In this document: in pieces, positions 4,332 through 38,121 of the stretch | Numbering within the stretch: position 1 is the stretch's first letter | Layout: every line of letters begins with the position of its first letter | Assembly: GCF_001547995.1 (NCBI RefSeq) | Contig: NZ_AP014690.1 | Coordinates: 1,422,001-1,486,000, forward strand | DNA from: Asaia bogorensis NBRC 16594 | Lineage (GTDB): Bacteria; Pseudomonadota; Alphaproteobacteria; Acetobacterales; Acetobacteraceae | DNA: 64,000 bases | Direction of reading: 5' to 3' | Translations under genes and position numbers: made by a program | Notes under the pieces: generated by a model | Database searches by the model: none | What the model was told of the DNA's origin: nothing | The model's input: only the letters and a program-made list of their open reading frames with translations

Positions 4332-6704
4332 ATGACCGCTCAAGGTCCGCTCTCTGCAAAGCAGATCGCCCTGTTTGATCAATGGTGGCAGGCTGCCAAC
4401 TACCTCTCCGTCGCGCAGATCTATCTTCTGGATAATCCGCTGCTGCGTGATCCGCTCAAGCTGGAGCATGTAAAGCCGCGCCTGCTGGGGCATTTCGGGA
4501 CCACACCGGGCCTCACGCTGCTCTATCTGCACCTCAACCGCATCATCAAAGAGCGCCAGAAGAGCATACTCTTCATTGCTGGTCCGGGTCATGGGGCGCC
4601 GGGTGTCGTTGCCGCAACCTACCTGGAAGGCACGTATAGCGAGTACTTCCCGGAAGTGTCGCAAGACATCGAGGGTGTTGGACGCTTGGTCAAGCAGTTC
4701 TCGTTCCCCGGTGGTATTCCGAGCCATGTGGCTGCGACCACCCCTGGTTCGATCCATGAAGGCGGTGAGCTTGGCTATTCTCTTTCTCATGCCTATGGCG
4801 CCGTGCTGGACAATCCTGATCTGGTTGTAGCCTGCGTTGTCGGTGACGGTGAGGCCGAAACCGGCCCGCTCGCGACCTCGTGGCACAGCAACAAGTTCCT
4901 TGACCCGCGCAATGACGGTGCGGTGCTGCCGATCCTGCATCTCAACGGATACAAGATTGCCAACCCGACGGTGCTGGCTCGTATCCCCGAGGAGGAACTT
5001 CTGGCCCTGTTCCGCGGCTATGGCTATGATCCGGTGATCGTTGCCGGCGATGATCGCGACACCGTGCATCAGCTCATGGCAAAGGCTATGGACACCTGTT
5101 TCGACAAGATCGCCGAGATCCAGAAGCGTGCGCGCAGCGAAAACAGCGCGGATCGCCCGACCTGGCCCATGATCATCATGCGCACGCCGAAGGGCTGGAC
5201 TGGCCCCAAGGAAGTCGATGGTCAGCGTTGCGAGGGCTACTGGCGTTCCCATCAGGTTCCCCTGACGGATCTGGAAAAGCCAGGCCATCTGAAGATCCTC
5301 GAAGACTGGATGCGCAGCTACAAGCCCGAGACGTTGTTCGACGAGAATGGCCGCCTCCATGCCGAGATTGCTGCTCTGGCGCCGGAGGGTACCCTGCGCA
5401 TGAGCGACAATCCTCATGGCAATGGTGGTCAGCTTCGTCGTCCGCTTCGCATGCCGGACATCGAGACCCACGCTCTTGCCGTGTCATCGCCCGGTGCCGT
5501 TCTTGCTGAGAGCACACGAATTCTCGGAGCATGGCTCCGTGATGTGATGCGCATGAACCTTGAGAGCCGCAATTTCCGCGTGCTGTCACCGGATGAAAAC
5601 AACTCGAACCGCCTGAATGACGTCCTTGAGGTAACCAACCGCGCGTGGACGGCTGAGACGTATGCCTATGACGATCATCTGGCACCGGATGGCCTCGTCA
5701 TGGAAATTCTGAGCGAGCATACCATTCAGGGTTGGCTCGAAGGCTATCTGCTGACCGGGCGCCATGGCTTCTTCTCGTGCTACGAAGCCTTCGTCCATCT
5801 GGTTGATTCGATGGTCAATCAGCATGCGAAATGGATCAAGTCGGCGAAGGAAGTTCAGTGGCGCCGTCCGATCGCTTCGCTCAATTACCTGCTGACCTCG
5901 CATGTCTGGCGTCAGGATCATAACGGCTTCAGCCATCAGGATCCGGGGTTCATGGATCATGTGGTGAACAAGAAGGCCGATATCGCCCGCGTGTATCTGC
6001 CGCCTGATGCGAACACCCTGCTCTATGTGGCCAAGCACTGCCTTGAAAGCTGGGATCGTATCAACGTGATCGTGGCGGGCAAGCAGCCGGAACATCAGTG
6101 GCTTGATATCGATGCGGCCATCGCGCATTGCAGCCAGGGTATCGGCATCTGGCAGTGGGCCAGCAATGACAAGGGCTTCGAGCCGGATCTGGTCATTGCT
6201 TCTGCGGGTGACGTTCCCACGGTCGAGGCGCTTGCCGCTGTGCAACTGCTCCGCGAGCATACGCCTGACCTCAAGGTCCGCTTCGTGAACGTTGTCGATC
6301 TCATGACGCTGCAGTCGCCGAGCGAGCACCCGCATGGTCTGGACGACGTGACCTTCGATAATCTGTTCACCAAGGACAAGCCTGTGCTGTTCGCCTTCCA
6401 TGGCTATCCGCAGCTGGTGCATCGTCTGATCTATCGTCGCAGCAATCGTGCCAACTTCCATGTGCACGGCTTCCGCGAAGAAGGCACCACCACCACGCCG
6501 TTCGACATGACCGTGCGTAACAACCTCGATCGCTATCACATCGTACTGAACGCCGTGCGTCGCGTTCCGGCCCTGTCGGGACATGCCGCCTATGTCACGC
6601 AGATGATCAACGACAAGCTTGTTGAGCATAAGCGCTACATTGCCCAGTATGGTGAGGATATGCCCGAGATCCTCAACTGGAAGTGGCAGGGAAGCCGGGG
6701 CTAA
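4332..6704 (+). CDS. xfp: Phosphoketolase (xylulose-5-P/fructose-6-P)
   Basis: A 790-residue thiamine-diphosphate enzyme that splits xylulose 5-phosphate (and often fructose 6-phosphate) with phosphate into acetyl phosphate and glyceraldehyde 3-phosphate (or erythrose 4-phosphate). The Xfp signature EGGELGY lies near residue 142 and the ThDP/Mg motif GDGEAETGP near residue 170, followed by LHLNGYKI. The C-terminal transketolase-like domains are intact and length is normal for the family. An ATG at 4332 (AGGA at 4317-4320) is chosen; GTG at 4326, overlapping the ackA stop, is an equally placed alternative. It forms an operon with ackA upstream and a HAD phosphatase downstream (TAATG overlap). 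Confidence 0.95.
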
Positions 6705-7516
6705 TGAAGCAAGCGGTTCAACTCGTCCTCGCTGACGTGGATGGGACACTGGTGACCAGGGACAAGATCCTGACACCCCGTGCCATCCGCGCCGTTCATG
6801 CCCTTCGCGAGAGGGGTATACGGTTTGCCGTGACAAGCGGGCGACCGCCTCGTGGCATGGCGATGCTGATTGAACCGCTGGCAATCGACATGCCGATTGC
6901 CGGTTTCAATGGTGGCGTTCTGGTCCATCCGGACTGGAGCGTCATCGAAACCAAACGCCTGACCCATGCCCAGGCAGAGCAGGTGCTGAAGATCATCACC
7001 GATCATGGGGCCGACCCCTGGGTCTATACGAGCCATGACTGGTTTGTTCATGACCACGATGCGCCCCATGTCTCGCGTGAAGAATGGACGGTGAAATTCG
7101 CACCCAGAGTAGATGATGTCTCCCGTCATCTGGACGACGTCGTGAAGATCACCGGTGTCAGCGACGATGCTGCGCTGATGCAGAAACTCGAGCGTGACTT
7201 GCAGGAGGCGCTGGGCCAGACAGCGTCAGCCGCGTGCTCACAGCCCTATTATGTTGATGTGACCAATCGGGAGGCCAACAAGGGCGGCGTGGTGACAACG
7301 CTTGAAGCCTTGTTCGACATTCCAGCCGCGTCGATGGTCACATTGGGAGACCAGCCCAACGATATGCTCATGTTTGCAAAGACAGGTATGTCGATTGCGA
7401 TGGGGCAGGCGAATGACACGGTCAAGGCTGCGGCAACCCATGTCTCAACCTCGTGCGAGGAAGAGGGCTTTGCGATCGGGCTCGAACGTTACGTGCTGGG
7501 GGACGTTGCCACCTGA
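6704..7516 (+). CDS. HAD-superfamily (Cof-type, IIB) sugar phosphatase
   Basis: A 270-residue cytoplasmic phosphatase of the Cof/YidA type. HAD motif I is DVDGTL near residue 12, motif II a Thr/Ser in FAVTSGRP, and motif IV GDQPNDMLMF near residue 213, with the large C2-type cap between. ATG 6704 shares one base with the xfp stop (TAATG), and GGGAAG lies ten bases upstream, so it is translationally coupled to xfp. This suggests a role with sugar phosphates around the phosphoketolase step, perhaps clearing toxic by-products such as erythrose 4-phosphate; that role is inference. Cof-type enzymes are promiscuous and the true substrate is unknown. Confidence 0.85.
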   Translation: MKQAVQLVLADVDGTLVTRDKILTPRAIRAVHALRERGIRFAVTSGRPPRGMAMLIEPLAIDMPIAGFNGGVLVHPDWSVIETKRLTHAQAEQVLKIITDHGADPWVYTSHDWFVHDHDAPHVSREEWTVKFAPRVDDVSRHLDDVVKITGVSDDAALMQKLERDLQEALGQTASAACSQPYYVDVTNREANKGGVVTTLEALFDIPAASMVTLGDQPNDMLMFAKTGMSIAMGQANDTVKAAATHVSTSCEEEGFAIGLERYVLGDVAT

Positions 7517-7541
7517 TCAACTGTGATCAGGAGTTCGACGC

Positions 7542-8177
7542 GTGATTGATCTGTATTACTGGCCAACGCCTAATGGCCACAAGATAACGCTTTTCCTCGA
7601 GGAGGCTGGGCTGGATTACCGGATCATTCCGGTCAATATCAGCAAGGGCGATCAATTCGCTCCCGCATTTCTCAAGATCTCGCCTAATAACAAGATGCCA
7701 GCGATTGTCGACCACGCGCCTGCTGACGGCGGTGAACCGATCAGCGTGTTTGAGTCCGGCGAGATCCTGCTTTATCTGGCCGAGAAGACCGGATTATTCC
7801 TCTCTTCCGCGCCACGTGAGAAGATCAAGACCCTCGAGTGGCTGTTCTGGCAGATGGGGGGCTTCGGGCCCATGCTGGGACAGAACCATCATTTCTCGCT
7901 CTATGCTCCCGAGAAGATCGCTTATGCCATCAAGCGCTATCAGGACGAGACGAAGCGCCTCTATACTGTGCTGGAGACACGCCTGAGAGAAAGCGCCTTC
8001 GTAAGCGGAGAGCAATACGGCATTGCCGATATGGCGACCTATCCGTGGACGCGCACCTGGAAGGAACAGGGGATCGATATCGAAGCCTTCCCTGCGGTAA
8101 AGGCATGGCGCGAGATTGTCGAGGCTCGACCGGCCACGCAGCGTGCCCTTGCGCGGGCCGATGAAGTGAAGTCCTGA
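7542..8177 (+). CDS. Glutathione S-transferase, YfcG/YghU-like (Nu class)
   Basis: A 211-residue GST with an N-terminal thioredoxin-like domain and an all-helical C-terminal domain. The TPNGHK motif at residues 8-13 is characteristic of the YfcG/YghU/Ure2p group, whose members show disulfide-bond reductase activity with glutathione rather than classical conjugation. The glutathione gamma-glutamyl contact appears as FESGEILLYLAEKTG near residue 70. The start is GTG 7542, preceded by CAGGAG at about 7528-7533. It lies 25 bases after the HAD gene and may be the last gene of the ackA operon, ending at a strong terminator. Confidence 0.88.
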   Translation: MIDLYYWPTPNGHKITLFLEEAGLDYRIIPVNISKGDQFAPAFLKISPNNKMPAIVDHAPADGGEPISVFESGEILLYLAEKTGLFLSSAPREKIKTLEWLFWQMGGFGPMLGQNHHFSLYAPEKIAYAIKRYQDETKRLYTVLETRLRESAFVSGEQYGIADMATYPWTRTWKEQGIDIEAFPAVKAWREIVEARPATQRALARADEVKS

Positions 8178-8231
8178 GAGCTCAAACAGTGGGGCAGAAT
8201 CATGGGGTTTGCCCCCACTCCTGTTCCGAAG

Positions 8232-8269
8232 AAAAACACCCGGCACCATTACGGCACCGGGTGTTTTTT
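8232..8269. terminator. Bidirectional intrinsic terminator between gst and the SDR gene
   Basis: AACACCCGGCACC pairs with GGCACCGGGTGTT, with A-run on the left and TTTTTT on the right, so it can stop transcription from both sides. It sits exactly between the convergent gst (+) and pentitol operon (-). Confidence 0.9.
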
Positions 8270-8313
8270 GCTCAAGGCCGCAATCAGCAGGTTGCGGCCC
8301 GTTTCCCGTCAGA

Positions 8314-9087
8314 TCACCAGACGGTAAAGCCACCATCGACACTGACGATCGAGCCGGTCATCAGGCTTGCGGCATCCGACGCAAGGAACTGGACAACCGA
8401 GGCCACTTCTTCGGGCTGTCCAACGCGGCCCATCGGGGTACCATCGACCCAGCGGTCGTATAGCGCGGGCTTCTGCATACCAAAGCGGGTAAGGGTGGTT
8501 TCGATATAGGTGGGGGCAACGGCATTGGCACGGATGCCATGCGGGGCCCACTCGGCGGCCAGTGAGCGGATGTACTGATGCACCCCTGCCTTCGAAGCGT
8601 TATAGGCGGCCTGCTCCTGCGGACGGTTGACGATAAGGCCGGACATGGACCCGATTGCAACAATCGCGCCTGACTTCTGCTTGATCATCACGCGTCCAAC
8701 GGCCTGGCAGCAGCGGAACACGCCGTTGAGATTGACATTGATCTGCTTGAGCCACTGATCTTCCGTCATGTCCTCGGCCTTGACCTCGGAGATGCACAGA
8801 CCGGCATTAGCGACCAGAATATCGAGGCGGCCATGACGCTGGACGATGGTATCCACGGCCTGGGTGACGCTGCTCTCGGAAGTGACATCCATCGCGACGC
8901 TGCAGGCTTTCATACCCGAATCGCTCAGGCTCTTGGCCGATTCAGCCGCCTTGGTCGCGTCAAGGTCGGCGATGACCACATGGGCGCCAGCCTCGGCCAG
9001 CGCGGTAGCACAGCACAGACCGATGTTCTGCGCGCCGCCCGTGACCACTGCAACACGACCATCGAGGCGAAGTTTTTCCATATACAT
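8314..9087 (-). CDS. SDR-family polyol dehydrogenase (probable pentitol 2-dehydrogenase)
   Basis: A 257-residue classical short-chain dehydrogenase. It has the cofactor motif TGGAQNIG near residue 18, an acidic DLD after beta-2 (suggesting NAD+), NAGLCIS, and the catalytic triad as SMSG with YNASK. The C-terminus ends with VDGGFTVW. It is the last gene of the kinase/ABC operon, 17 bases after the ATPase gene, which argues for oxidation of the imported polyol to a ketose. Because the operon kinase carries a D-ribulose-type motif, ribitol or D-arabinitol to D-ribulose is the likeliest reaction, but substrate is inferred. Start ATG 9087 (MYMEKLRLDG) is preferred over a longer frame to 9171 that would overlap the ATPase gene. 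Confidence 0.87.
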   Translation of the reverse strand: MYMEKLRLDGRVAVVTGGAQNIGLCCATALAEAGAHVVIADLDATKAAESAKSLSDSGMKACSVAMDVTSESSVTQAVDTIVQRHGRLDILVANAGLCISEVKAEDMTEDQWLKQINVNLNGVFRCCQAVGRVMIKQKSGAIVAIGSMSGLIVNRPQEQAAYNASKAGVHQYIRSLAAEWAPHGIRANAVAPTYIETTLTRFGMQKPALYDRWVDGTPMGRVGQPEEVASVVQFLASDAASLMTGSIVSVDGGFTVW

Positions 9088-22622: not shown

Positions 22623-24109
22623 GAACGATCAGGCGGCCGGCTGTTCTGCGCAGCGGAATAGCGCTGTGCTGCCTTGGTAGCATGGTTGCGGCCTGCACGA
22701 TGGGCCCTGATTTCAAACGTCCGGATGTGATCTCGCCTGCGCAGTTCGGGGCGGAGCCGCAGGATGTGGCAGGAACGACCTACGGCGGTCCGGTCGATGT
22801 GGCCTGGTGGAAGCAGTTCAATGACCCTGAGCTCAATTATCTGATTGATCGTCTTGCAGTGCAGAACATCGACCTGCAACGCGGGATGCAACGTATTGCC
22901 GAAGCCCGGTCGCAAACACGTATCGCGGCCGCGCAGGGGCTCCCTAGCCTGAACTGGGCCGGGTCCTATACCCGCACCCATCAGAGCGAGACGGGGTTTA
23001 TCTCGCTTGTGCAGCCACGCAATGGCGCGCCGAACGAATATGATTTCTTTCAGAACACGCTTGGCGCGTCATGGGATCTCGATCTTTTCGGGCAGATACG
23101 CCGTGCCGTCGAAGCCCAGCACGCAGCACAGGAGGCCGCAGCCGAGGCACGCCACGGCCTTGCCCTGAGTACGATCGCGACCCTGGTTGACAGCTACATG
23201 CAGCTTCGCGGAGTTCAGGACCAGATTGCAATTACCGAGCGGCACATGGCGGTTTCCGATCATGATCTGGCCCTCGTGCAGTCACGTTTTGGCAACGGCG
23301 CAGCGACCACGCTCGATCTGGCGCAGGCCCGTACGGAGCAGGCCAATACGGCCTCAGCGCTTCCCACCCTGCGCAACTCGGAAAGCGCGCTGATCAACGC
23401 CATTGGTCTGCTTCTGGACGAACCGCCGCGAAGCCTCGCGCAGGAACTGGCACGCCGTGATGGCACGATGCCGATCATCGTCCCGGCTGCGCCGATCGGG
23501 GTGCCCTCAGCCCTGGCTCGCAGGCGCCCTGATATTCGTGAAGCCGAAGCCAAGCTGCATATGGCGACTGCTGGTGTCGGGGTCGCCATCGCTGCATTTT
23601 ACCCGGATATTACCCTGACGGGGCAAATGGGCACGCAGACCCTGTCTGCAGCGAATTTCTTTTCACTGCCATCTCGTCAGTTTGCGACGGGGCCAACCCT
23701 GTCTGTCCCACTCTTCGAGGGCGGACGCCTGCGCGGGACGCTGGCACTGAGACGGGCCGAGCAAAAAGACGCGGCGCTTGCCTACCACCAGACCGTGACG
23801 ACGGCCTGGAACGAGGTCGACAATGCCTTGACGGCTTATGCCCAGTCCCAAAAGCGCCTCGTGCAGACGCGGATCGCGTGGCAGGAGAGCCGCAAGGCTG
23901 TCGAGGTGGCGCAACAGCGCTATCGCGAAGGGGCTGTGAACTTCCTCCAGGTCGACACGGCAGAGGCTGCGGCGCTGGCCGCGGAGGCGACTTTCTCGGC
24001 CAACAGGATTCAAATTGCGACTGCTTTCGTCTCGCTTTACCGGGCGCTGGGTGGAGGCTGGGAGTATCCGGCTTTTTCAGAAGATAAATCTTCAAAATCA
24101 GAAGGTTAG
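22619..24109 (+). CDS. Outer-membrane efflux lipoprotein, NodT/OprM family
   Basis: A 496-residue TolC-like outer-membrane factor. The signal peptide ends at a lipobox VAAC (Cys near residue 26), predicting lipid anchoring, followed by TMGPDFKRPD, a typical NodT-family N-terminus. Two repeated helical OEP domains follow, with RRPDIREAEAKL near residue 302 as the conserved loop. It forms the exit duct for the MFS/HlyD pair encoded upstream. ATG 22619 overlaps the HlyD stop (ATGA). Confidence 0.93.
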   Translation: MRTIRRPAVLRSGIALCCLGSMVAACTMGPDFKRPDVISPAQFGAEPQDVAGTTYGGPVDVAWWKQFNDPELNYLIDRLAVQNIDLQRGMQRIAEARSQTRIAAAQGLPSLNWAGSYTRTHQSETGFISLVQPRNGAPNEYDFFQNTLGASWDLDLFGQIRRAVEAQHAAQEAAAEARHGLALSTIATLVDSYMQLRGVQDQIAITERHMAVSDHDLALVQSRFGNGAATTLDLAQARTEQANTASALPTLRNSESALINAIGLLLDEPPRSLAQELARRDGTMPIIVPAAPIGVPSALARRRPDIREAEAKLHMATAGVGVAIAAFYPDITLTGQMGTQTLSAANFFSLPSRQFATGPTLSVPLFEGGRLRGTLALRRAEQKDAALAYHQTVTTAWNEVDNALTAYAQSQKRLVQTRIAWQESRKAVEVAQQRYREGAVNFLQVDTAEAAALAAEATFSANRIQIATAFVSLYRALGGGWEYPAFSEDKSSKSEG

Positions 24110-24358
24110 GGTCATTGTTTTGACCAGTGTGTGAGAAGCTGTCTCTTCGAATCATGCTTTATCAATAACGATCAAATCTCTGATATTATACGATTCCTGA
24201 GTCCAAGATTTGTTCCTTTGGGGTTTGAGAGAACAAACTGCGATCCTTGAGCGATCCTTGCGCGATCATGGTGCCAATCTGAACTACATATTTTTCTAAG
24301 AGTCTTGTTTAGAATCATAGGCCTAGACGGAAATGATCAAGTGGTGCCATAAGGCGGC
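24110..24358 (+). promoter_or_regulatory. AT-rich intergenic region with inverted and direct repeats
   Basis: No gene seen. TTTGTTC (24209-24215) is inverted as GAACAAA (24231-24237) with a 15-base spacer. Just after it, GCGATCCTTG occurs at 24240-24249 and 24251-24260, and GCGATC again at 24262-24267, giving an 11-base period, one helical turn. These lie about 90-150 bases upstream of the next gene and could be a binding array. Confidence 0.4.
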
Positions 24359-24919
24359 ATGAATGGACGTTCTCATATCGTTCTAGGTTTGGCCTGTGGA
24401 ATAACGGCGGCCGCTGCCGGCTATGTGCCGTTCACATTCGCCTCTCTGGGAATGGCTGCCCTGGGGAGCCTGACACCTGATATCGACACCGAACGTTCCA
24501 TGCTCGGCTGTCGCCTGCCTTGGCTTTCGCGAACGCTTTCCCGTTGCATAGGCCATAGGACAGTTACCCATTCTCTGGCGGTGCCATTGCTGCTGGGTCT
24601 GGCTGCGATCCATTTTGGTGGAATGGATCTCTTGTGTTCCGCTGTGGGAAGTTTCCTGATCGGATATGCGAGCCATATCGCAGGTGACCTCGTGACCGGC
24701 GGATGCTGGGCGCTCTACCCATTATCCCGCAACAGGATCTCTCTCTGGCCATATGCTAGGGTGGGCAGCCTGCGCGAATATATGGTCCTGCTTGTTAGTC
24801 TCGGGTTGTTGGGAAGCGTGACGTATCATCTCCTGACCCATGAGACACGTCAGTCCGGCCATCACACATCAATCGGATCTCACAGCGGCAAAGCCCGCCG
24901 CATGGCTTTTATTGCGTAA
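24359..24919 (+). CDS. YdjM-like membrane-bound metal-dependent hydrolase
   Basis: A 186-residue inner-membrane protein of the YdjM/DUF457 family. It begins MNGRSHIVLGL, has PDIDTERS near residue 40, HRTVTHSL near 62 and HIAGDLVT near 103; these His/Asp clusters between hydrophobic segments are the putative metal ligands. Four or five membrane helices are likely. The family's reaction is not established; some members are linked to DNA-damage responses and others to phospholipid hydrolysis. The tail after residue 160 is polar and poorly conserved. It stands between the efflux operon and purH, with a poor ribosome site. Confidence 0.8.
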   Translation: MNGRSHIVLGLACGITAAAAGYVPFTFASLGMAALGSLTPDIDTERSMLGCRLPWLSRTLSRCIGHRTVTHSLAVPLLLGLAAIHFGGMDLLCSAVGSFLIGYASHIAGDLVTGGCWALYPLSRNRISLWPYARVGSLREYMVLLVSLGLLGSVTYHLLTHETRQSGHHTSIGSHSGKARRMAFIA

Positions 24920-24974
24920 AACGGCTCGGACGCCTATGAGCACCTCTTGAAATCCAGCCATTCCGGAGCCCGTC

Positions 24975-26555
24975 ATGACCTCTCCCGATCGCCTGCCCGT
25001 CCGCCGGGCGCTTCTTTCCGTTTCAGACAAGACCGGTCTGATCGATCTGGGCAAGGCGCTGATCGCGCATGGCGCGCAGCTTCTCTCGACGGGCGGATCG
25101 GCCAAAGCCCTGCGTGATGCCGGACTGCCTGTGACCGACGTTTCCGATCACACGGGCTTTCCCGAAATTCTGGATGGTCGCGTGAAGACGCTGGTGCCGC
25201 AGATCCATGGCGGTATTCTTGGCCGTCGTGATCTGGACTCTCACAAGGCACAGATGGCTGAACACAATATTGCGCCAATCGACCTCGTTTGCGTCAACCT
25301 CTACCCGTTTGCCGCGACCGTCGCGTCGGGGGCAGGCCCGGAGGACTGCATCGAGAATATCGATATCGGTGGGCCTGCCATGATCCGCGCAGCAGCCAAG
25401 AATCATGACCATGTCGTGATCCTGACTGAGCCCGCACAATATGATGCGCTCAAGGCATCGCTTGATGCGGGCGGTTCCACCCTGGCCGAGCGCACGGCCT
25501 GGGCAGGTGCCGCCTATGCCCATACGGGTGCCTATGATGCGATGATTGCCACCTGGTTTGCGGGCCAGCGCGGCGACGCCCTGCCAGAAACCATGACGCT
25601 GAGTGGCACGCGTCGTGAATCCCTGCGCTACGGTGAGAACCCTCATCAGCAGGCCGCTTTTTATGTCACCGGTGAGAAGCGTTTCGGCATCGCGACGGCA
25701 ACGCAGATTCAGGGCAAGGCGCTCAGCTACAACAACCTGAACGACACGGATGCGGCTTTTGAGGCTGTTGCCGAGTTCGACAAGCCGAGCGTGGTGATCG
25801 TCAAGCATGCCAATCCCTGCGGTGTGGCCAGCGCCGAGACGCTCGAGGCGGCATGGAAAGCTGCACTCAAATGTGACCCCGTTTCGGCCTTCGGCGGCAT
25901 CGTCGCGCTGAACCGTACACTCGATGAGGCGACAGCCGAGCAGATTGCCACGATCTTCACCGAGGTGATTGTGGCCCCTGACGCCACCGAAGGCGCACGC
26001 GCGGCGCTGAGCCGCAAGAAGAGCCTGCGCCTGCTCCTGACGGGGGGCGTGCCTTCCGCCACGGCTGAGGGCATGACTTTCAAATCGGTTGCAGGCGGCT
26101 TCCTGGCACAGAGCCGTGATGCCGGTCAGGTGACCGAAGCCGATCTGCGTGTCGTGACCAAGCGGGCACCGACCGACGCTGAAATGGCCGATCTGCTTTT
26201 TGCTTTCCGCGTTGCCAAGCATGTGAAATCCAATGCCGTGATCTACGCCAAGGATCGCGCCACGGTCGGCATCGGAGCCGGGCAGATGTCACGCGTCGAC
26301 TCAGCGCGTATCGCGGCGCGCAAGAGTCTCGACGCAGCCGAAGCTGCAGGTGAGACAGTGGCACTGACAGAAGGGTCGGTCGCGGCGTCTGACGCGTTCT
26401 TCCCCTTCGCTGACGGCCTTGAGAGCGTGATTGCAGCCGGTGCCATCGCCGTTATCCAGCCGGGCGGTTCCATTCGCGACCAGGAAGTGATCGATGCTGC
26501 CGATGCAGCTGGCATTGCCATGGTATTCACCGGTATGCGCCATTTCCGTCATTGA
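24975..26555 (+). CDS. purH: Bifunctional AICAR formyltransferase / IMP cyclohydrolase
   Basis: A 526-residue enzyme for the last two steps of purine synthesis, AICAR to FAICAR to IMP. The N-terminal MGS-like cyclohydrolase domain (residues 1-200) shows [21 protein letters not shown] and VNLYPF. The C-terminal transformylase has the catalytic Lys-His in [11 protein letters not shown] near residue 276 and ends [27 protein letters not shown] and a FTGMRHFRH tail. Length and motifs are standard. ATG 24975 follows GGAG at 24965-24968. It appears monocistronic or first before a small exported protein. Confidence 0.97.
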
Positions 26556-26585
26556 AACTGGTCTGCGTTGTCGCTTTCCCGATTG

Positions 26586-26615
26586 CCCGGTGCCTCGGAC
26601 TGAAGTCGCACCGGG
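26586..26615 (+). other. Hairpin after purH
   Basis: CCCGGTGC (26586-26593) and GCACCGGG (26608-26615) pair perfectly with a 14-base loop. There is no T-run after it, so it may stabilise or only partly terminate the purH transcript. Confidence 0.45.
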
Positions 26616-26681
26616 TAACGGGGCGTCAATCAGTCGGTTGTGAAAGACAGGGCTGAGATAGCTCTCACGGAGGGGGGAAAC

Positions 26682-27428
26682 ATGAAGATCAGAACCGGTT
26701 TGCTGGCAGGGCTCGTTGCTGCGTTGGTGGTTGCGCCTGCTGGACGTGCCGCTGCTCAGCCGGCCATTTCAGGGGATACGATGCCTCAGGGGACCATGTC
26801 GCAGGCAGTTCTCGGCTCACTCCCGGCGGGATGTGTTTTCGATCTGACAAGTCTCCCCCGTTTTTCTGGCAAGATAGACCGCCTATTGCCGGGCACACAG
26901 GGTGATGCCGTCGGTGCCTTGCTCAAGGATGGCACCGAAATCGAAATGCCCCCCGGTCTGGCCGCGCAGGATCACCACATGCGTGCTGGGGCGACCATTA
27001 CCGTTCGTGGGCTTGCCGCTCCATCGCTTCGTCTTGTTCGGGCCTTTGCGCTGAGCAACGGGCAAGAGCTTTGTGCCTCGCCGATGCCGGAGCTCGTGAC
27101 GGCAGCGCCCCCCGCCAGCACACAGGGCCGGATTGCGCGGCTCCTGCATGATGGTGATGGGGCGCTGAATGGAGCCTTACTTGATAATGGCACCGTGCTG
27201 CGTGTGCCTGCCTCCGGCGCCCGTACCTCTTTCCTGCGTCTCGGGGCGCCGATCTATGCGGAGGGTTACGGCTATCAGACGGCCTATGGCAAGTTAGTCG
27301 TGGCAAGGCGTCTTGGGCCCGACAGGCTGCAGGCCATTCATGTTTCAGATGAACCGCTTGTCCCCCGCGGCGCTCCGCCGGGATCGGCGGGTTACGATCA
27401 GATTGAGGCGCCCGGAGGCACTGAATAA
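26682..27428 (+). CDS. Exported protein with tandem duplicated beta domain, unknown function
   Basis: A 248-residue predicted periplasmic protein. The signal peptide covers about residues 1-26 (MKIRTGLLAG core, cut after GRAAAQ). The mature part holds two similar ~65-residue units: one beginning GKIDRLLPG with GALLKDGTEIEMP, the other GRIARLLHDG with GALLDNGTVLRVP; both then read LGA/AGA and a Y/V-rich strand. This looks like a duplicated OB-like beta domain, a pattern also seen in DUF5666-type proteins. Two Cys (in PAGCVFD and ELCASP) could form a disulfide. Start ATG 26682 follows GGAGGGGGG closely. I do not recognise a function. Confidence 0.75.
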   Translation: MKIRTGLLAGLVAALVVAPAGRAAAQPAISGDTMPQGTMSQAVLGSLPAGCVFDLTSLPRFSGKIDRLLPGTQGDAVGALLKDGTEIEMPPGLAAQDHHMRAGATITVRGLAAPSLRLVRAFALSNGQELCASPMPELVTAAPPASTQGRIARLLHDGDGALNGALLDNGTVLRVPASGARTSFLRLGAPIYAEGYGYQTAYGKLVVARRLGPDRLQAIHVSDEPLVPRGAPPGSAGYDQIEAPGGTE

Positions 27429-27466
27429 GGTCCTCTCAGCGGTTTAGCCTGTGTATCGATAAGGAA

Positions 27467-27500
27467 ATGCCGGGTGGCGTTACCATCCGGCATCTTTAAT
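27467..27500 (+). terminator. Intrinsic terminator after the exported-protein gene
   Basis: An 11-bp stem (27467-27477 with 27483-27493, one G-T pair, 5-base loop) built around ATGCCGG/CCGGCAT is followed by CTTTAATT. It lies 38 bases after the stop and between convergent genes. Confidence 0.75.
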
Positions 27501-27536
27501 TCGACCCGCTGGGGCGCTATCGATCGCGTGATGTCC

Positions 27537-28793
27537 TCAAACGATGTCTGACTCACGCAACGCGAGTGTAAGGCAAGGCGACAGGGGGAGAATGGGGGCA
27601 ACCGTCGCCTGGAAGGCGTGATACAGATCAGCCTTGTCCGGGTAGACCTCGCCTGAATAACGGCCTTGCGCGTCCACCTCATTACGCCATCCACCAAATT
27701 CATGGTCGATCAGTGTGCTGGCGATATAGTCCCAGACCTTGCGATACCATGTTTCATAGGCAGGGCTGCCCGTGCGCTTAAGCAGGTTCACTGCGGCGGT
27801 GACAGTTTCCGCCTGCACCCAGTGCGCCCGCACTGTGACCACCGGCTTATGGTCCCAGTCGATCGTGTAGATCATGCCAGGCTCTCCATCGGGTGCCCAC
27901 CCAAAGCGCAGCGCTGAGTCCAGCAGGGCGCGGGCATCATGCAGCATCCAGCCGGGGGCGGTCCCTTCGCGTCGCAGAAGAGCGGCCTCTACCTTCAGAG
28001 TGAGGTGAGCCCATTCTGCGAAATGGCCCGGTGTCATGCCATAGGGGCGCAGGGGGTCTGTCGTCTTGTCTCGGTTGTAGTCCTTGAGGAGTGTCCATTC
28101 CCGGTTGAAATGCTCGGGCATGCAGTAATCATGGTTTCCCGCGATCTCGTGCACAAAGCGGTGCACGATACGATGGGCGCGATCGAGCCATTTCTCATCC
28201 CCTGTGATATCAGCAAGGGCGAGGCAGGATTCTGTGGAGTGCATGTTGGCGTTTGCGCCGCGATAGTCCTCCTCGTCGCTCCAGTCGAAGGCGAAGCTCT
28301 CACGCATGACGCCTTCATCTTCGGACCAGTAATGGGTCTCGAGAACTTCGGTCGCCAGGCTGAGAAGCTTTTCGCCCCCTTCAACACCCAGCAGGGTTGC
28401 CGACGAGCCGGCCAGGGCCACGAAAGCATGAAGATAGGCCTGTTTGCGGCCCTCGCGTGCTGCAGGTGATTCGTACCAGCCGCCGTGATCCTTATCATGG
28501 AGCGGGCCGAGAAGAGCCTTGACGCCATGACGTACAAGCGGGAGGCAGCCCGGTATGCCCTGCAGGGCTGCCATGGAGAAAGCATGGACCATACGGGCGG
28601 TCAGGATCCCGTCTGGCAACGCGCCCTCGGGCAGGGTGCCGTCGCGGCCAAGAGCGCCAAAACCGCCTTCCATGCGTGATGCCATTGCGAAGCGGAGCAG
28701 GCGGCGGCCCTCGGCGGCCAGCCACAGGCGATGGGCGGAACGGCGCACCCAGCTTGTTTCAGGCAGAAGCATGGGCGAGAGAAGATCGGTCAT
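27537..28793 (-). CDS. AGE-family sugar epimerase/isomerase (mannose isomerase-like)
   Basis: A 418-residue (alpha/alpha)6-barrel enzyme of the N-acylglucosamine 2-epimerase superfamily, closest in motif wording to the YihS/mannose isomerase branch. Visible signatures are HDKDHGGWYESP near residue 110, QAYLHAF, RGANANMHSTESCLAL near 187 with a conserved His, MPEHFNREW and PGHFAEWAHL with another catalytic His, and RAHWVQAE near 321. It probably interconverts an aldose and ketose such as mannose and fructose in the cytoplasm. Start ATG 28793 follows GGGAC; the frame extends upstream to 28820 without support. It is transcribed alone, convergent to the preceding gene. Confidence 0.83.
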   Translation of the reverse strand: MTDLLSPMLLPETSWVRRSAHRLWLAAEGRRLLRFAMASRMEGGFGALGRDGTLPEGALPDGILTARMVHAFSMAALQGIPGCLPLVRHGVKALLGPLHDKDHGGWYESPAAREGRKQAYLHAFVALAGSSATLLGVEGGEKLLSLATEVLETHYWSEDEGVMRESFAFDWSDEEDYRGANANMHSTESCLALADITGDEKWLDRAHRIVHRFVHEIAGNHDYCMPEHFNREWTLLKDYNRDKTTDPLRPYGMTPGHFAEWAHLTLKVEAALLRREGTAPGWMLHDARALLDSALRFGWAPDGEPGMIYTIDWDHKPVVTVRAHWVQAETVTAAVNLLKRTGSPAYETWYRKVWDYIASTLIDHEFGGWRNEVDAQGRYSGEVYPDKADLYHAFQATVAPILPLSPCLTLALRESDIV

Positions 28794-29113
28794 AGAAACT
28801 GTCCCGTTATCGGCCGCCAAAGGGGCCTCGCATTACATGAACGGCAATGATCACGCATGGAAACGCGTTGAGTTGCGCGACAGAATATTGCGCGTCGTTT
28901 CAGGAGACCGGAAACGGCGAACCCGGAAGGGTTCCGCTTCGGATACGTATAACGCGTGACAAGAGCACGTTAACGCCTGTCGCGATCCTGCGTCCTGTCT
29001 GCTCGGCAAGTCTGTCACAAGAATTCACTATGGCTTGGCATTGGCGCGTCTTATTGTGCGGCATCAACGCGTTAGCGCGTAAGTATTATTGCATCAGGAC
29101 GACAAGAAAAGAC

Positions 29114-30589
29114 ATGGCGCCGTCACAGTCAGTAAATCCGCCCCCGGTTGATCTTCTTGGTTATGGCAAGCTTCCGTTGGAAGTTGCTCGCAACAAGGGA
29201 ATCTGGCCTGCGCCGCATTATCAGCATTCACTGGTAGCCTGCGCGCGCTGGGAGACGGAAAGCGTCGTGGAATGGCTCACCTATCATCGGTCGATCGGGT
29301 TCGACCATGTCTATCTGTACTGTAACGATGATGATCCGACGGCACTCTATGAAGCGGTGATGCCTTTCATTATCGCCGAAAAGCCATTCGTGACCTTCCA
29401 TCACTATCGCTATGTGGGCGAGCAGTTTCAGATGTATCGCCACTTTCTACGCCACCATGTGCATGAGACGCGCTGGTTGATGTTTCTGGATATCGACGAG
29501 TTTGTGTGTTTGCCAGGCAGCAACGACATCAGCAGTGTAAGCACCCGTTTCGGTGCAGATCACGACGCGGTCTATCTCAACTGGTGCGGCTATGGCTATG
29601 GTGGTCATGTCGAGCGGCCGGGCGGAAGTGTCCTGCGTCATTACCGCCATCGCGAGAGCGGTGCCTCACCTTTTACCAAGATCCTCGCCAAGGCGGAGGC
29701 CGTGTCCTATCGGCGTGCCTGCGAGAACCCGCATGTGGCCATCCATCACGATCTATTCGGCTTGGGCGCGCCGCTGCGCGCCTGCAACATGCTCGGTGAA
29801 TCGATGGAGGGTTATTACAATAACTTCCCTGACCACGCGTGGTCTTTTCTGAACGCCGACAATAGGCGTGAGCGCCTCGTTCAGGCTGGCTATATCGCGC
29901 ATTTCAATATCCGCTCGGAACAGGATTTCGCGCGTCGTGTTGCCCGGGGATGCCAGGGAGACTTCGCTGCCCAGACCCATTGGCAGAACAAGAATGTGCA
30001 GGAGCGGGCCGAGTATCACGCTGCAACCAATGCCGTGCTCGATACCTATCTGTCCGACTACTGGGAGGCGATGATCGGCAAGGGATGGCAGACGAGCATC
30101 GTGCCCTGCTCGCAATGGGACCTCCTTTCGAGAGGGAAGCGCGCCACGCAGAGTTCCACCATGCATCAAGGCTCGCGCGATGACGATGCCAGTCGGGCCG
30201 TATCAGGTTTCCTGACGGGGCACCCGCAGCATCACACAACCCTTGAAGACAACCCCTGGTGGATGGTTGATCTCGAAGTGCTCAGCCACATTCATCAGAT
30301 CATGATTTTCAACCGGCTGGATGGCGTTATGGAGCGGTTGGCGAGCTTCAAGGTCGAAGTTTCGCATGATCGCATCATATGGAAAACGATTATCGATCGG
30401 CAGGACGGCCCGGTCTTCGGCGGGCTTGACGGGACGCCATTCAACTGGATCGACGAGGCGGGCGTTCTCGGACGCTTCGTTCGTGTCACCATACCGGGCA
30501 GGCAGGTCTATCTGCAGACCGATCAGATCGAGATTTTTGGCCGCCCATTTTCTCTTGACGACTTCAAGGCCGCCAACGCCCCTGACTAG
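29114..30589 (+). CDS. Glycosyltransferase fused to F5/8-type-C (discoidin-like) domain
   Basis: A 491-residue two-domain protein. The N-terminal half is a GT2/GT92-like transferase: VACARWETESVVEWLTYHRSIG, then YLYCNDDD, and a metal-binding D-x-D as LDIDEFVCLP near residue 132; conserved GASPFTKIL follows. From about residue 345 the sequence switches to a discoidin fold: GKRATQSST, WWMVDLEVLSHIHQIMIFNR, SFKVEVSHD, GRFVRVTI and a final DQIEIFG. That domain usually binds sugars. I see no signal peptide or membrane helix, so it probably works in the cytoplasm on surface polysaccharide or glycan precursors. Starts at 29030 and 28847 are also in frame; no ribosome site is strong. Confidence 0.82.
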   Translation: MAPSQSVNPPPVDLLGYGKLPLEVARNKGIWPAPHYQHSLVACARWETESVVEWLTYHRSIGFDHVYLYCNDDDPTALYEAVMPFIIAEKPFVTFHHYRYVGEQFQMYRHFLRHHVHETRWLMFLDIDEFVCLPGSNDISSVSTRFGADHDAVYLNWCGYGYGGHVERPGGSVLRHYRHRESGASPFTKILAKAEAVSYRRACENPHVAIHHDLFGLGAPLRACNMLGESMEGYYNNFPDHAWSFLNADNRRERLVQAGYIAHFNIRSEQDFARRVARGCQGDFAAQTHWQNKNVQERAEYHAATNAVLDTYLSDYWEAMIGKGWQTSIVPCSQWDLLSRGKRATQSSTMHQGSRDDDASRAVSGFLTGHPQHHTTLEDNPWWMVDLEVLSHIHQIMIFNRLDGVMERLASFKVEVSHDRIIWKTIIDRQDGPVFGGLDGTPFNWIDEAGVLGRFVRVTIPGRQVYLQTDQIEIFGRPFSLDDFKAANAPD

Positions 30590-30662
30590 GGCGCATCACG
30601 GCGCGGCATCGCCACGGGAGGTCAAGGCAGAGCCCTTTTTGCAAGAAACGTGCCAGGGCGGC

Positions 30663-30690
30663 CTTGGAAAAAGCCGCAATGTTCCCATGT
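30663..30690 (+). promoter_or_regulatory. Sigma-32 (RpoH)-like heat-shock promoter of clpB
   Basis: CTTGGAAA (30663-30670), a 12-base spacer and TCCCATGT (30683-30690) match the RpoH consensus CTTGAAA / CCCCATnT at 7/8 and most -10 positions. It lies about 90 bases upstream of clpB, a classic RpoH target. Recognised by eye. Confidence 0.7.
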
Positions 30691-30779
30691 TCAAGTTATG
30701 ACGAGGCGAGAACTGCCTGAGAGGGGTTCTCGTTGTCGTAACCAGCCGCCTTTACGGGGCATAGGAGCATTGCGAAAAC

Positions 30780-33383
30780 ATGAATATTGAGAAATTTACC
30801 GAGCGTAGCCGCGGTTTTCTTCAGGCCGCTTCGACAATTGCACTGCGTGACTTCCACCAGCAGCTGACCCCCGAGCACCTTTTGAAAGCGTTGCTCGATG
30901 ATCCTGAGGGCGCTGCCTCGGGCCTGATCCGCGCAGCCGGGGGTACACCCGAAACAGTCCGCAAGGCTAATGATGCCGCACTGGCTCGTGTTCCCAAGGT
31001 GCAGGGCGGCGGGGCTGGTCAGCCTCAGGCAACGCCTGACCTTGTGCGTGTACTCGATAGTGCTGAGCAGGATGCCCAGCGTGCCGGTGACAGCTTCGTT
31101 GCGCAGGATCGCCTGCTTGTGGCGCTTGCTGCCAGCAAGACTGGCGCTGGTCAGGCGCTGAGCGAAGGCAAGGCCGATGCGAAGGCCCTTGAGCGCGCGG
31201 TGGCGGAATTGCGCAAGGGACGCGTGGTCGATAGCGCCAACGCCGAGGCGGGCTTCGATGCCCTCAAGAAATATGCGCGGGATGTGACGGCCGTGGCCCA
31301 ATCGGGCAAGCTCGATCCGGTGATCGGTCGTGACGAGGAGATCCGTCGCGCCATTCAGGTTCTGGCACGCCGCACCAAGAACAATCCTGTGCTGATTGGT
31401 GAGCCCGGCGTGGGCAAGACCGCCATCGTGGAAGGTTTGGCGCTGCGTATCGTCAATGGCGACGTGCCGGAAGCGCTGCGCAACAAGAAGCTGCTCTCGC
31501 TCGATATGGGTGCCCTGGTGGCTGGCGCGAAATATCGCGGTGAGTTCGAGGAGCGCCTGAAGGCTGTTCTCAAGGAAATCGAAAGCGCCGAGGGGCAGGT
31601 TATCCTGTTCATCGACGAGATGCACACGCTCGTGGGCGCGGGACGCTCCGATGGCGCAATGGATGCGTCGAACCTGATCAAGCCCGAACTGGCACGCGGC
31701 GTGCTGCATTGCATCGGTGCCACCACCCTCGACGAGTATCGCAAGTACATCGAAAAGGACGCGGCGCTGGCCCGTCGTTTTCAGCCGGTTTTTGTGGGTG
31801 AGCCCTCAGTTGCTGATACCATCTCGATCCTGCGTGGCATCAAGGAGAAATACGAGCTGCATCACGGTGTGCGTATCACCGATGGCGCACTCGTGGCTGC
31901 CGCGACGCTCTCCAATCGCTACATCACGGATCGGTTCCTGCCGGACAAGGCCATCGACCTTGTGGATGAGGCGGCAAGCCGTCTGCGCATGCAGATCGAT
32001 AGCAAGCCCGAGGCGCTCGATGAACTCGACCGTCGTATCATCCAGCTCAAGATCGAGCGCGAGGCGATCCGCAAGGAAGAGGACAGCGCGAGCCGCGAGC
32101 GTCTGGTGAAGCTGGAAGCCGAGCTGGCCGACCTGCAGGAACAGTCGGACACCATGAGCGCTGCTTGGCATGCCGAAAAGGACCGGGTGAATGCAGTTCA
32201 GAAGCTCAAGGAGCAGCTTGATCAGGCGCGTTCGGATGTCGATATTGCCCAGCGCAAGGGCGATCTCGCCAAGGCGTCCGAGCTTATGTATGCGACGATC
32301 CCAGGCCTTGAGCGTCAGATCGAAGAAGCCCAACAGGTCGAACAGCAGGATGCTGCTCAGGCAGGATTGTTCAGCGAGGCTGTGACCGATCAGGGAATTG
32401 CCTCTGTCGTGTCGCGCTGGACAGGTGTGCCGGTGGACCGGATGCTGGAAGGTGAGCGCGCCAAGCTGGTGCGTATGGAGGACGAACTTCGTGAGCGCGT
32501 AGTCGGTCAGGAGCCTGCGCTCAAGGCGGTGTCCAACGCCGTGCGTCGTGCCCGTGCAGGTTTGCAGGATCCCAATCGCCCCATCGGTTCGTTCCTCTTC
32601 CTCGGTCCGACCGGCGTCGGCAAGACCGAACTGGCCAAGGCGCTGGCGCAGTTCCTGTTTGACGACGATCGCGCCATGCTGCGCGTGGATATGAGCGAGT
32701 TCATGGAGAAGCACGCCGTATCCCGTCTGGTGGGTGCGCCTCCCGGCTATGTCGGCTACGAAGAGGGTGGCGTGCTGACCGAGGCGGTCCGTCGCAGGCC
32801 GTATCAGGTCATCCTGTTCGACGAGGTCGAGAAGGCGCATGAGGATGTTTTCAACATCCTGCTGCAGGTGCTCGATGACGGCCGTCTGACGGACGGGCAG
32901 GGGCGTGTGGTGGATTTCCGCAACACGATCATCATCCTGACCTCCAATCTCGGCTCGGACATACTGGCGCAGCAGCCCGATGGGGAGAGCACGGACCTCG
33001 TACAGGCTCAGGTGATGGCGGTGGTGCGTAATCATTTCCGCCCTGAATTCCTGAATCGTCTGGACGAGATCGTTCTGTTCTCTCGTCTGCAGCGGGCGGA
33101 TATGAACCGTATCGTCGCCATTCAGCTCAAGCGCCTGCGTGAGTTGCTGGCTGACCGTAAGATCACACTCGACCTCGATCAGGCAGCTGATAACTGGCTG
33201 GCAGAGTCCGGTTATGATCCGGTTTACGGCGCGCGCCCGCTCAAGCGCGTCATACAGCGCAGCCTGCAGAACACGCTGGCAGGGCTGCTCCTGGATGGGA
33301 CGATCTTTGATGGTCAGACCGTGCATGTCTCGGCCAACGACAAGGGGCTGGTCATCAATGGCCAGCAGGCCGAGCTGAACTGA
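30780..33383 (+). CDS. clpB: ATP-dependent protein disaggregase ClpB
   Basis: An 867-residue Hsp100 chaperone that rescues aggregated proteins with DnaK/DnaJ/GrpE. Domains in order: Clp-N repeat domain (1-150), AAA+ 1 with Walker [14 protein letters not shown] near residue 207 and ARRFQPVFV, a coiled-coil middle domain (about 405-525) rich in Glu/Lys/Gln, AAA+ 2 with [14 protein letters not shown] near 610, and a C-terminal domain with [13 protein letters not shown]. Length is standard for ClpB and the presence of the full middle domain excludes ClpA. An RpoH-like promoter lies upstream and a strong terminator downstream, so it is monocistronic. Confidence 0.97.
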
Positions 33384-33460
33384 TTGGCCGCAGGGCCATT
33401 GCCATGCCATAGGCCGGTTCATCCGGCGAGCGGCATGGCAAAGAAAGGCATCTGAAGTAA

Positions 33461-33496
33461 AGGGGGCGCACCTATGGCCGGGTGCGCCCCCTTTTT
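33461..33496. terminator. Strong intrinsic terminator after clpB
   Basis: GGGGGCGCACC and GGTGCGCCCCC form an 11-bp stem, followed on the plus strand by TTTTT. The minus-strand side has a weaker T-rich flank, so it may also stop the convergent SDR transcript. Confidence 0.9.
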
Positions 33497-33531
33497 CGTT
33501 TGATAAACGCTGCCTGAGAGGGGCGTCGCTG

Positions 33532-34581
33532 TTATCCGGGCATACCTGTGCCACCAGTTAAGCCGTAGATCTGTCCGGTGATGTAACTTCCCTCCGTGGA
33601 GGCGAGCGTGACATAGACCGGTGCGATCTCCGCAGGCTGGCCCGGACGCCCCATGGGCACGGTGGTCCCGTATTTCTCGACGGCAGACATGGGCTGGCCG
33701 CCACAGACCTGAAGTGGTGTCCAGAAAGGTCCGGGCGCCACGGCATTGATGCGTATGCCCTTTGGCAGAAGCTGCTTGGCCAGAGATTTGGTCAGGTTGG
33801 CGATGCCAGCTTTTGTAAGGCTGTAATCAATGATGATTTCCGACGGATTATAGGCGTTGGAAGAAGCCGTGTTCACGATGGCGCTGCCCGGTGGCATATG
33901 CGGGATAGCGGCCTTGATGATCCAGAACAGCGCATAGAGATTGGTCTTGAGTGTCCAGTCGAATTCCTCGGTAGAGAGTTCAAGGATACTCTCATGGTAG
34001 TGCTGCCGACCGGCACAGTTCACCAGCGTATCAAGGCCGCCGAGTTGTGACGCAGCGTCCGACACAAGCTTCTGACAGAACGCTTCGTTGCGAATGTCGC
34101 CCGGCAGGGCAATGGCCTTGCGTCCTGCCTTGCGGATGAGGGCCACAACCTCGCGCGCGTCTTCTTCTTCCTGCGGGAGATAGTTGATCGCGATATTAGC
34201 CCCTTCCCGTGCGTAGGCAATGGCGATGGCGCGCCCAAGGCCTGAATCGCCGCCTGTGATCAGGGCACGGCGTCCAGTCATGCGGCCGCTGCCTTTGTAG
34301 CTTGTCTCTCCGCAATCCGGTTTGGGATGCATGCGCGATTGTAGGCCCGGCCATTCCTGGGGTTGGGACGCAAACGGGGCGTGGGGATAGAGTTTCTGCG
34401 GGTCGGCCAACGGTGCGGAGGCGGCAGGCGCATTTGGCGCAGCCTGCGCACGGCTTGACCCGGCAACCAGCCCTGCAAGACCAAGCGTTGCTCCTTGCAT
34501 CATGCTGCGTCGGTTGGTGGCGGGGCTGGCCCCTTCAGGCGTGATGGTTCTGAGGGTTTTCTTGTCGATCGGATCGGTCAT
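33532..34581 (-). CDS. SDR oxidoreductase with Tat-type signal (YghA-like)
   Basis: A 349-residue short-chain dehydrogenase of the YghA/GsiB-like group. The N-terminus carries a twin-arginine motif NRRSMM at about residues 23-28, a hydrophobic stretch GLAGLVAG and a cleavage-like AQA, suggesting export in folded form by the Tat system. The Rossmann motif TGGDSGLGRA lies near residue 107, NCAGRQ near 190, and the active site as NTASS with YSLTK; the C-terminus has GGTGMPG. A conserved PKPDCGETSYKG segment precedes the fold. NAD(P)-dependent enzymes are not expected in the periplasm, so either the cofactor is carried along or the arginines are not used. It faces clpB across a shared terminator. 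Confidence 0.85.
   Translation of the reverse strand: MTDPIDKKTLRTITPEGASPATNRRSMMQGATLGLAGLVAGSSRAQAAPNAPAASAPLADPQKLYPHAPFASQPQEWPGLQSRMHPKPDCGETSYKGSGRMTGRRALITGGDSGLGRAIAIAYAREGANIAINYLPQEEEDAREVVALIRKAGRKAIALPGDIRNEAFCQKLVSDAASQLGGLDTLVNCAGRQHYHESILELSTEEFDWTLKTNLYALFWIIKAAIPHMPPGSAIVNTASSNAYNPSEIIIDYSLTKAGIANLTKSLAKQLLPKGIRINAVAPGPFWTPLQVCGGQPMSAVEKYGTTVPMGRPGQPAEIAPVYVTLASTEGSYITGQIYGLTGGTGMPG

Positions 34582-38121
<3,540 letters not shown>

Follow-up and report, generated by a model that had tools for sequence, protein, structure and literature searches.

A gene of Asaia bogorensis NBRC 16594 encodes a protein of 491 aa in which a GT-A glycosyltransferase is joined to a C-terminal jelly-roll domain, an architecture confirmed by structure prediction, and this C-terminal half resembles F-type lectins, by its modelled fold and its sequence profile, more closely than discoidins and carries the fucose triad. 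The combination can be read as a GT92-type transferase that would act inside the cell and clamp the acceptor glycan with its lectin-like domain, a reading to which we give a probability of about 0.6. The gene lies in the 64,000-nucleotide stretch analysed here (the window), itself part of a single 3.2 Mb contig (G000:C1:1422001-1486000), with the following features:

29114..30589, plus strand: coding sequence, 491 aa, GT92-type glycosyltransferase with a C-terminal F-type-lectin-like domain (open reading frame, Pfam, start column of the alignment)
29210..30106, plus strand: GT92-type GT-A catalytic domain, residues 33-331 (Pfam PF13704/PF01697, domain-only model, structural match to GalS1)
29489..29500, plus strand: DxDE metal/nucleotide-sugar motif, D126, D128 and E129 (invariant in 28/28 rows, aligned with DVDE of GalS1)
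29900..29902, plus strand: H263, putative catalytic base or third ligand of the metal (invariant in 28/28 rows)
30110..30553, plus strand: F-type-lectin-like jelly-roll domain, residues 333-480 (F5_F8_type_C; FBP32, lectinolysin, SpX and eel lectin by profile and fold)
30233..30337, plus strand: predicted fucose-binding motif H374-X26-R401-X-D403-X4-R408 (gap-free alignment to FBP32 domain 1)

The start at ATG 29114 is supported by a methionine at the same alignment column in five Asaia and Swaminathania rows (L034, L035, L036, L039, L041); the frame is open upstream as far as an ATG at 28847. The alignment (A1) comprised 28 rows, i.e., the window protein and 27 of the 42 loci with matches in named genomes, the remaining 15 having been left out as frameshift-split, multi-module, cut by a contig end or matching in one half only. 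Pfam recognised Glyco_tranf_2_4 (PF13704) at residues 46-141 (52.7 bits against a gathering cut-off of 27.5, E 6.5e-14), Glyco_transf_92 (PF01697) at 49-157 (26.4 against 23, E 6.3e-6) and F5_F8_type_C at 344-462 (39.8 against 28.2, E 5.9e-10), while an NCBIfam search of the 491-aa protein gave no family match. The AlphaFold2 model of the full protein had a mean pLDDT of 88.6 and showed two confident domains in one chain; with both halves above their cut-offs and confidently modelled, a chance Pfam match was ruled out. Neither a signal peptide nor a membrane helix was evident, the highest 19-residue Kyte-Doolittle mean being 1.09 (a heuristic, not SignalP), in agreement with the first-pass annotation, whose reasoning that such a lectin must bind a nascent glycan or acceptor in the cell holds up as reasoning.

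That the catalytic half is of GT92 type, as had been proposed, is borne out by the Pfam cut-offs passed, by the DxD motif and by the predicted fold. Modelled alone (pLDDT 91.8), the domain had as its nearest solved structure the Populus galactan synthase GalS1 (Z 18.0, rmsd 3.6, 237 aligned residues, 15% identity); the second enzyme in the structural comparison was the fucosyltransferase WrtF (Z 13.2), and other GT families were placed lower in the GT fold searches. PF13704 serves as a GT92 marker in the available text of PMC11765706. The metal motif first noticed as LDIDEF proved invariant in A1 (D126, D128 and E129 in every row), its DxDE pairing with the DVDE of GalS1. Two histidines, H65 and H263, are likewise invariant and H212 is kept in 27/28 rows; a histidine acts as the base in GalS1, according to the portion of PMC11062476 consulted.

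For the C-terminal half, the proposed discoidin-like F5/8-type-C domain stood in so far as the fold is a lectin-type jelly-roll, confidently predicted, and Pfam F5_F8_type_C was matched; what changed was its nearest kin. Single-sequence comparison placed residues ~335-476 closest, among solved structures, to FBP32 (a striped-bass fucolectin), the lectin domain of streptococcal lectinolysin, pneumococcal fucose-binding modules and eel agglutinin, with FBP32 matched at E 4.8e-12 and, when the 28-row profile was used, at 3.8e-27. The profile gave F-type lectins between 4e-27 and 5e-13, the next match being neuropilin at 1.2e-5 and factor V/VIII and neuropilin standing at 1e-5 or weaker, and in Foldseek all of ranks 1-11 were F-type lectins (3e-12 to 8e-10), followed at a distance by the best CBM32 (6e-8) and neuropilin (1.5e-7). 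The best nine rows of the structural comparison were also F-type lectins (Z 20.6-18.7; FBP32 20.6 with rmsd 2.2 over 142 aligned residues, lectinolysin 19.4, SpX 19.0), other carbohydrate-binding modules reaching Z <=17.7; eel agglutinin, at 17.7, was level with a chitosan-binding module, so that F-type lectins and other modules are not sharply separated there. Discoidin, factor V/VIII and CBM32 domains were thus set aside as nearest solved relatives, being outranked in Foldseek and profile alike. Of the two outcomes that the first-pass annotation named as refuting, a C-terminal part without the jelly-roll was not what the model showed, and a normal GT92 tail was also ruled out: GalS1 aligns to model residues 19-327 and the lectins to 333-481.

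The segment from H374 to R408 aligns without gaps to FBP32 domain 1, with an H-to-R spacing of 26 as in the FBP32 alignment; the F-type motif is printed with X24 in the part of the review PMC5712786 that was available. Shuffling the C-terminal 148 residues 200,000 times produced H-X26-R-X-D-X4-R/K in 768 cases, so the motif by itself is modest evidence, and it is its placement in a homologous alignment that carries weight. The triad H/R/R(K) is intact in 18/28 rows of A1, 17 of them also having the Asp, and in all eight aligned Asaia/Swaminathania rows; H374 is kept in 26/28. It is broken in the other ten, including a seven-row Acidocella-type clade in which R401 is replaced by T. The F-type calcium motif, in which small hydrophobic residues precede D, G and a small hydrophilic residue, is absent: residues 362-366 read AVSGF, with Ser for Asp at 364, and Asp occurs in 1/28 rows, for which reason the domain is termed F-type-lectin-like.

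Among 60 related genomes, 25 had some match and 16 had both halves (G000-G009, G016, G018, G022, G025, G031, G033), i.e., 9/9 Asaia (G000-G008), 7/27 family members outside that genus (G009-G035) and none of the remaining 24. Several copies are interrupted: that of G007 is in pieces and those of G006 and G033 have in-frame stops, two of these (G006, G007) being Asaia drafts, and in G018 the match is in two segments of one frame. In the G007 draft (Asaia platycodi, L043) NodT and purH are split as well as the GT92-lectin gene, which suggests sequencing errors. The named genomes gave 42 loci, some frameshift-split, of which 34 had both halves, six the GT only and two the lectin only; carriers named to genus were mostly Acetobacteraceae or kin such as Acidocella, with Methylorubrum outside. 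An even draw from the class yielded matches at 1e-40 in 2/385 genomes, one being the window's own, and three other genomes of the same family in that draw had no match at that threshold. The fusion had been called uncommon, which is apt for the class, only partly so for the family, and wrong within Asaia.

The genes purH, orf262, an AGE-family epimerase, clpB, SDR and gyrB are mostly constant neighbours in Asaia and Swaminathania; we take purH, clpB, gyrB and NodT to be such from reading their sequences, and the epimerase and SDR were identified by Pfam. The epimerase (27537-28820, minus strand) has as its nearest NCBIfam model D-mannose isomerase, below cut-off (581 against 600 bits). The 262-aa reading frame orf262 (26640-27428) adjoins the locus in both genera, is more diverged than its neighbours and had no Pfam or NCBIfam match. 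None of the Asaia-type neighbours was found beside the gene in the other loci fetched, except for weak matches to NodT (L045, 31%) and SDR (L059, 30%). Ten flanking ORFs chosen from six other loci included, in L051, a GT2 protein together with an FkbM methyltransferase; L042 and L044 had separate glycosyltransferases and L047 a tandem GT92-lectin copy, the remainder being unrelated proteins. There is no support for the gene being part of an operon or of a polysaccharide cluster; the adjacent ORFs examined form no cluster of the latter kind. The suggestion that the fusion marks an unusual pathway gained nothing from the immediate neighbours: only the epimerase is sugar-related, and in loci outside Asaia and Swaminathania it was not found beside the gene.

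Comparison with A. bogorensis GD-01 revealed that the gene belongs to a strongly diverged segment:

26300..30649, approximate limits, no strand assigned: allelic block (end of purH, orf262, AGE-type epimerase, GT92-lectin gene), strong divergence from A. bogorensis GD-01

Per 150-base step, identity is 91-99% in the left flank (24950-26300) and 90-100% in the right (30650-36500), and falls to 45-86% within the block; there is a smaller dip at 24050-24950, around a ydjM-like gene, with 59-81% in 4/6 steps. The synonymous divergence of the block is roughly 4- to 10-fold above that of its flanks: dS is 1.79 in orf262, 1.18 in the epimerase and 1.55 in the GT92-lectin gene, against 0.17-0.31 in NodT, purH, clpB, SDR and gyrB (clpB 0.24, gyrB 0.17). 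Rapid amino-acid diversification was ruled out as the source of the strain difference because dS itself is high, which suggests instead an exchange of old alleles. The two GT92-lectin proteins are sisters in the tree. Between Asaia sp. W19 and A. krungthepensis the gene has a dS of 2.12 against 0.34 in clpB, with NodT (1.83) and purH (0.97) diverged too. Between the window protein's gene and its GD-01 counterpart, dN and dS are 0.12 and 1.72 for the GT half and 0.11 and 1.71 for the lectin half, and the resulting dN/dS of about 0.07, rough given nearly saturated synonymous sites, indicates that both halves are constrained.

Neither route to GDP-L-fucose was found in this genome, which counts against fucose as the ligand. 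No gmd was detected (best 74 bits against a cut-off of 415), and in only one of nine Asaia genomes, that of A. platycodi (G007), did a gene exceed the cut-off (437.7 bits). The fucose salvage family PF07959 (fucokinase/GDP-fucose pyrophosphorylase) was found in 0/36 genomes, this one included, by a search that matched 5/14 controls and placed one above cut-off. With neither gmd nor the salvage family, the cell probably makes no fucosylated glycans, and the sugar bound may be one other than fucose; in this Asaia it is probably not endogenous fucose. Genes of dTDP-rhamnose type (rmlB, rmlD) and of galE type (TIGR01179, 374.7 bits against 262.3) are present above TIGRFAM cut-offs. In some other carriers of the fusion, gmd-like genes narrowly miss the cut-off (G031, 412.5 bits; G009, 411.2; G025, 373.4), and in these fucose could be the ligand.

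Related proteins extend the architecture. Ten ORFs, picked as long or odd and so not a random sample, were scanned with Pfam, and 7/10 had at least two GT domains:

L053:4819-8124: GT61-GT92-GT92-lectin
L056: GT92-lectin-GT61, lectin under the Pfam cut-off
L058: GT61-GT92-lectin
L060:250-3474: three GT92 domains, then lectin
L064:6001-8886: GT92-GT92-lectin-GT2
L065: GT92-GT2-lectin, lectin under the Pfam cut-off, from an isolate genome
L071: two GT92 domains, no lectin match
L057: one GT92 and two lectin-type domains
L055: one GT92 and one lectin-type domain
L072: a glycosyltransferase, no lectin match

Apart from L065, the multi-GT ORFs (6/7) come from metagenome assemblies, and some of the joins could be assembly artefacts. 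Ten further ORFs, hand-picked from matches reaching the lectin half and again not a random sample, showed F5/8-type domains on these partners:

L074: on a GT17
L021: on an FkbM methyltransferase
L020: on another methyltransferase
L015, L019: on GT92-type proteins
L075: on a sulfatase
L028: on a PEP-CTERM protein

In L026 the Pfam scan assigned no partner to the domain. Two proteins of ~430 aa (L022:706-1992, L032:625-1965) have a C-terminal lectin-type domain and an N-terminal part without a Pfam match; the L022 ORF is among three matching frames in succession at 795-798 kb of G021:C1.

Each half has precedents in known systems. GalS1 (8d3t/8d3z), a plant beta-1,4-galactan synthase, combines CBM95 with GT92, as described in the accessible part of PMC11062476. 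Like it, the Asaia protein has a GT92 GT-A domain and a carbohydrate-binding module on one chain; in GalS1 the CBM95 is N-terminal, with a stem and plant pectin substrates, whereas the Asaia module is C-terminal and F-type-lectin-like, on a bacterial enzyme without an evident membrane helix. With FBP32, eel agglutinin (AAA), lectinolysin and the SpX modules the domain shares the jelly-roll and the fucose triad with the spacing of FBP32 domain 1, but it differs in being on an intracellular-looking transferase and in its missing calcium-motif Asp. The solved F-type lectins are secreted or extracellular. Bishnoi et al. 2015 (as cited in PMC5712786) placed prokaryotic F-type lectin domains, including those of Proteobacteria, on glycoenzymes and methyltransferases, fusions that resemble this one in joining the domain to a glycan-acting enzyme or a methyltransferase; a glycosyltransferase is not named as partner in the portion of that review consulted. 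To the extent that these sources were available, then, bacterial glycoenzymes and methyltransferases that bear F-type lectin domains are known, and the GT92 and multi-GT forms were not met: literature searches, with poor coverage of subscription papers, found no paper on a fusion of GT92 with an F-type lectin or on a multi-GT fusion. GalNAc-transferases are guided to already glycosylated acceptors by a lectin domain within their own chain (PMC5716993, in part), and by analogy such steering is proposed here, with a different GT family and a different lectin fold. The polypeptide GalNAc-transferases are Golgi enzymes that combine GT27 with a ricin-type lectin and act on protein acceptors, and it is from the eukaryotic Golgi that lectin domains steering glycosyltransferases are best known. 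A further GT92 enzyme, the animal GALT-1, is likened to the Asaia protein by family, not by sequence comparison; we know of no lectin domain in it. GALT-1 of C. elegans galactosylates alpha1,6-fucose (PMC7614267, as far as available), and with this and the modular GalS1 in view, a GT92 enzyme bearing a module that resembles fucose lectins would fit an acceptor clamp.

In such an arrangement the enzyme would be cytoplasmic or peripheral on the inner face of the membrane, and its GT92 half would be nucleotide-sugar-dependent and presumably inverting, galactosyl transfer being a first guess. Within GT92, GALT-1 and GALS carry out UDP-galactose-dependent beta-1,4 transfer. The lectin half would serve as a built-in clamp, holding the terminal sugar (fucose-like or galacto-configured) of a growing chain and so positioning or retaining it for the catalytic site, where the GT92 half would add the next sugar; the product may be a cell-surface glycan extended or decorated during its intracellular building. 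The clamp would act in the way proposed for the lectin domains of eukaryotic GalNAc-transferases and for the CBM95 of GalS1. Both domains with their predicted folds, the catalytic motif, the triad, the constraint on both halves and the recurrence of the fusion favour the clamp, while the missing fucose donor route, the broken triads, the calcium-motif Asp replaced in 27/28 rows and the absence of a polysaccharide cluster among the adjacent ORFs examined count against it. The latter facts, other than the last, speak for a rival reading in which the C-terminal domain would be a lectin-derived stabilising or oligomerising module that no longer binds sugar, with the GT92 half alone active. We consider this unlikely, because the full triad persists in every Asaia/Swaminathania row despite near-saturated synonymous sites, so that selection appears to hold it, and because H374 is kept so widely.

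The jelly-roll might instead anchor the enzyme, itself soluble, at the inner membrane or on a lipid carrier, as the C2 domains of factor V/VIII do on phospholipid; these are of the same fold superfamily, they and neuropilin domains are among the weaker matches, and the enzyme has no evident membrane helix of its own. The higher ranking of F-type lectins by Foldseek E-value and by sequence, and the triad preserved in the Asaia clade, make docking quite improbable. Asaia associates with plants and has been described, in sources available in part, as belonging to the mosquito microbiome, and a protein exported without a signal peptide could modify fucosylated glycans of an insect or plant host, which would suit a triad predicting fucose binding and leave the missing GDP-fucose pathway unproblematic. 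Such export is very hard to credit, given that no export signal is evident, that nucleotide-sugar donors are not expected extracellularly and that the multi-GT relatives look like intracellular assembly enzymes. The acceptor clamp, by comparison, is fitted by chains that carry several glycosyltransferases with a lectin, or a similar domain on a GT17 or methyltransferases, all of which could dock on a shared glycan. A broader version of the clamp is possible but doubtful: Acetobacteraceae and close kin would use F-type-lectin-like domains as intracellular clamps, multi-GT chains would work as a processive assembly line in which the lectin passes the nascent chain between active sites, and the Asaia clamp would read a fucose-like or galacto-configured sugar, not fucose.

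An apparently soluble bacterial GT92-lectin would offer a simple, expressible system for studying lectin control of acceptor choice and chain length, which the multi-transferase relatives would extend to one-chain glycan synthases. The contrast between the intact triad and a genome lacking GDP-fucose pathways opens a possible new F-type lectin specificity to direct test. The same contig has a further pair of adjacent ORFs (L076:4667-6838 and 6703-8790, minus strand; G000:C1 ~1394.7-1398.8 kb). Each has an F5/8 type C domain in its N-terminal part, and the long second part, for which Pfam gave no match, is possibly another type of glycosyltransferase.
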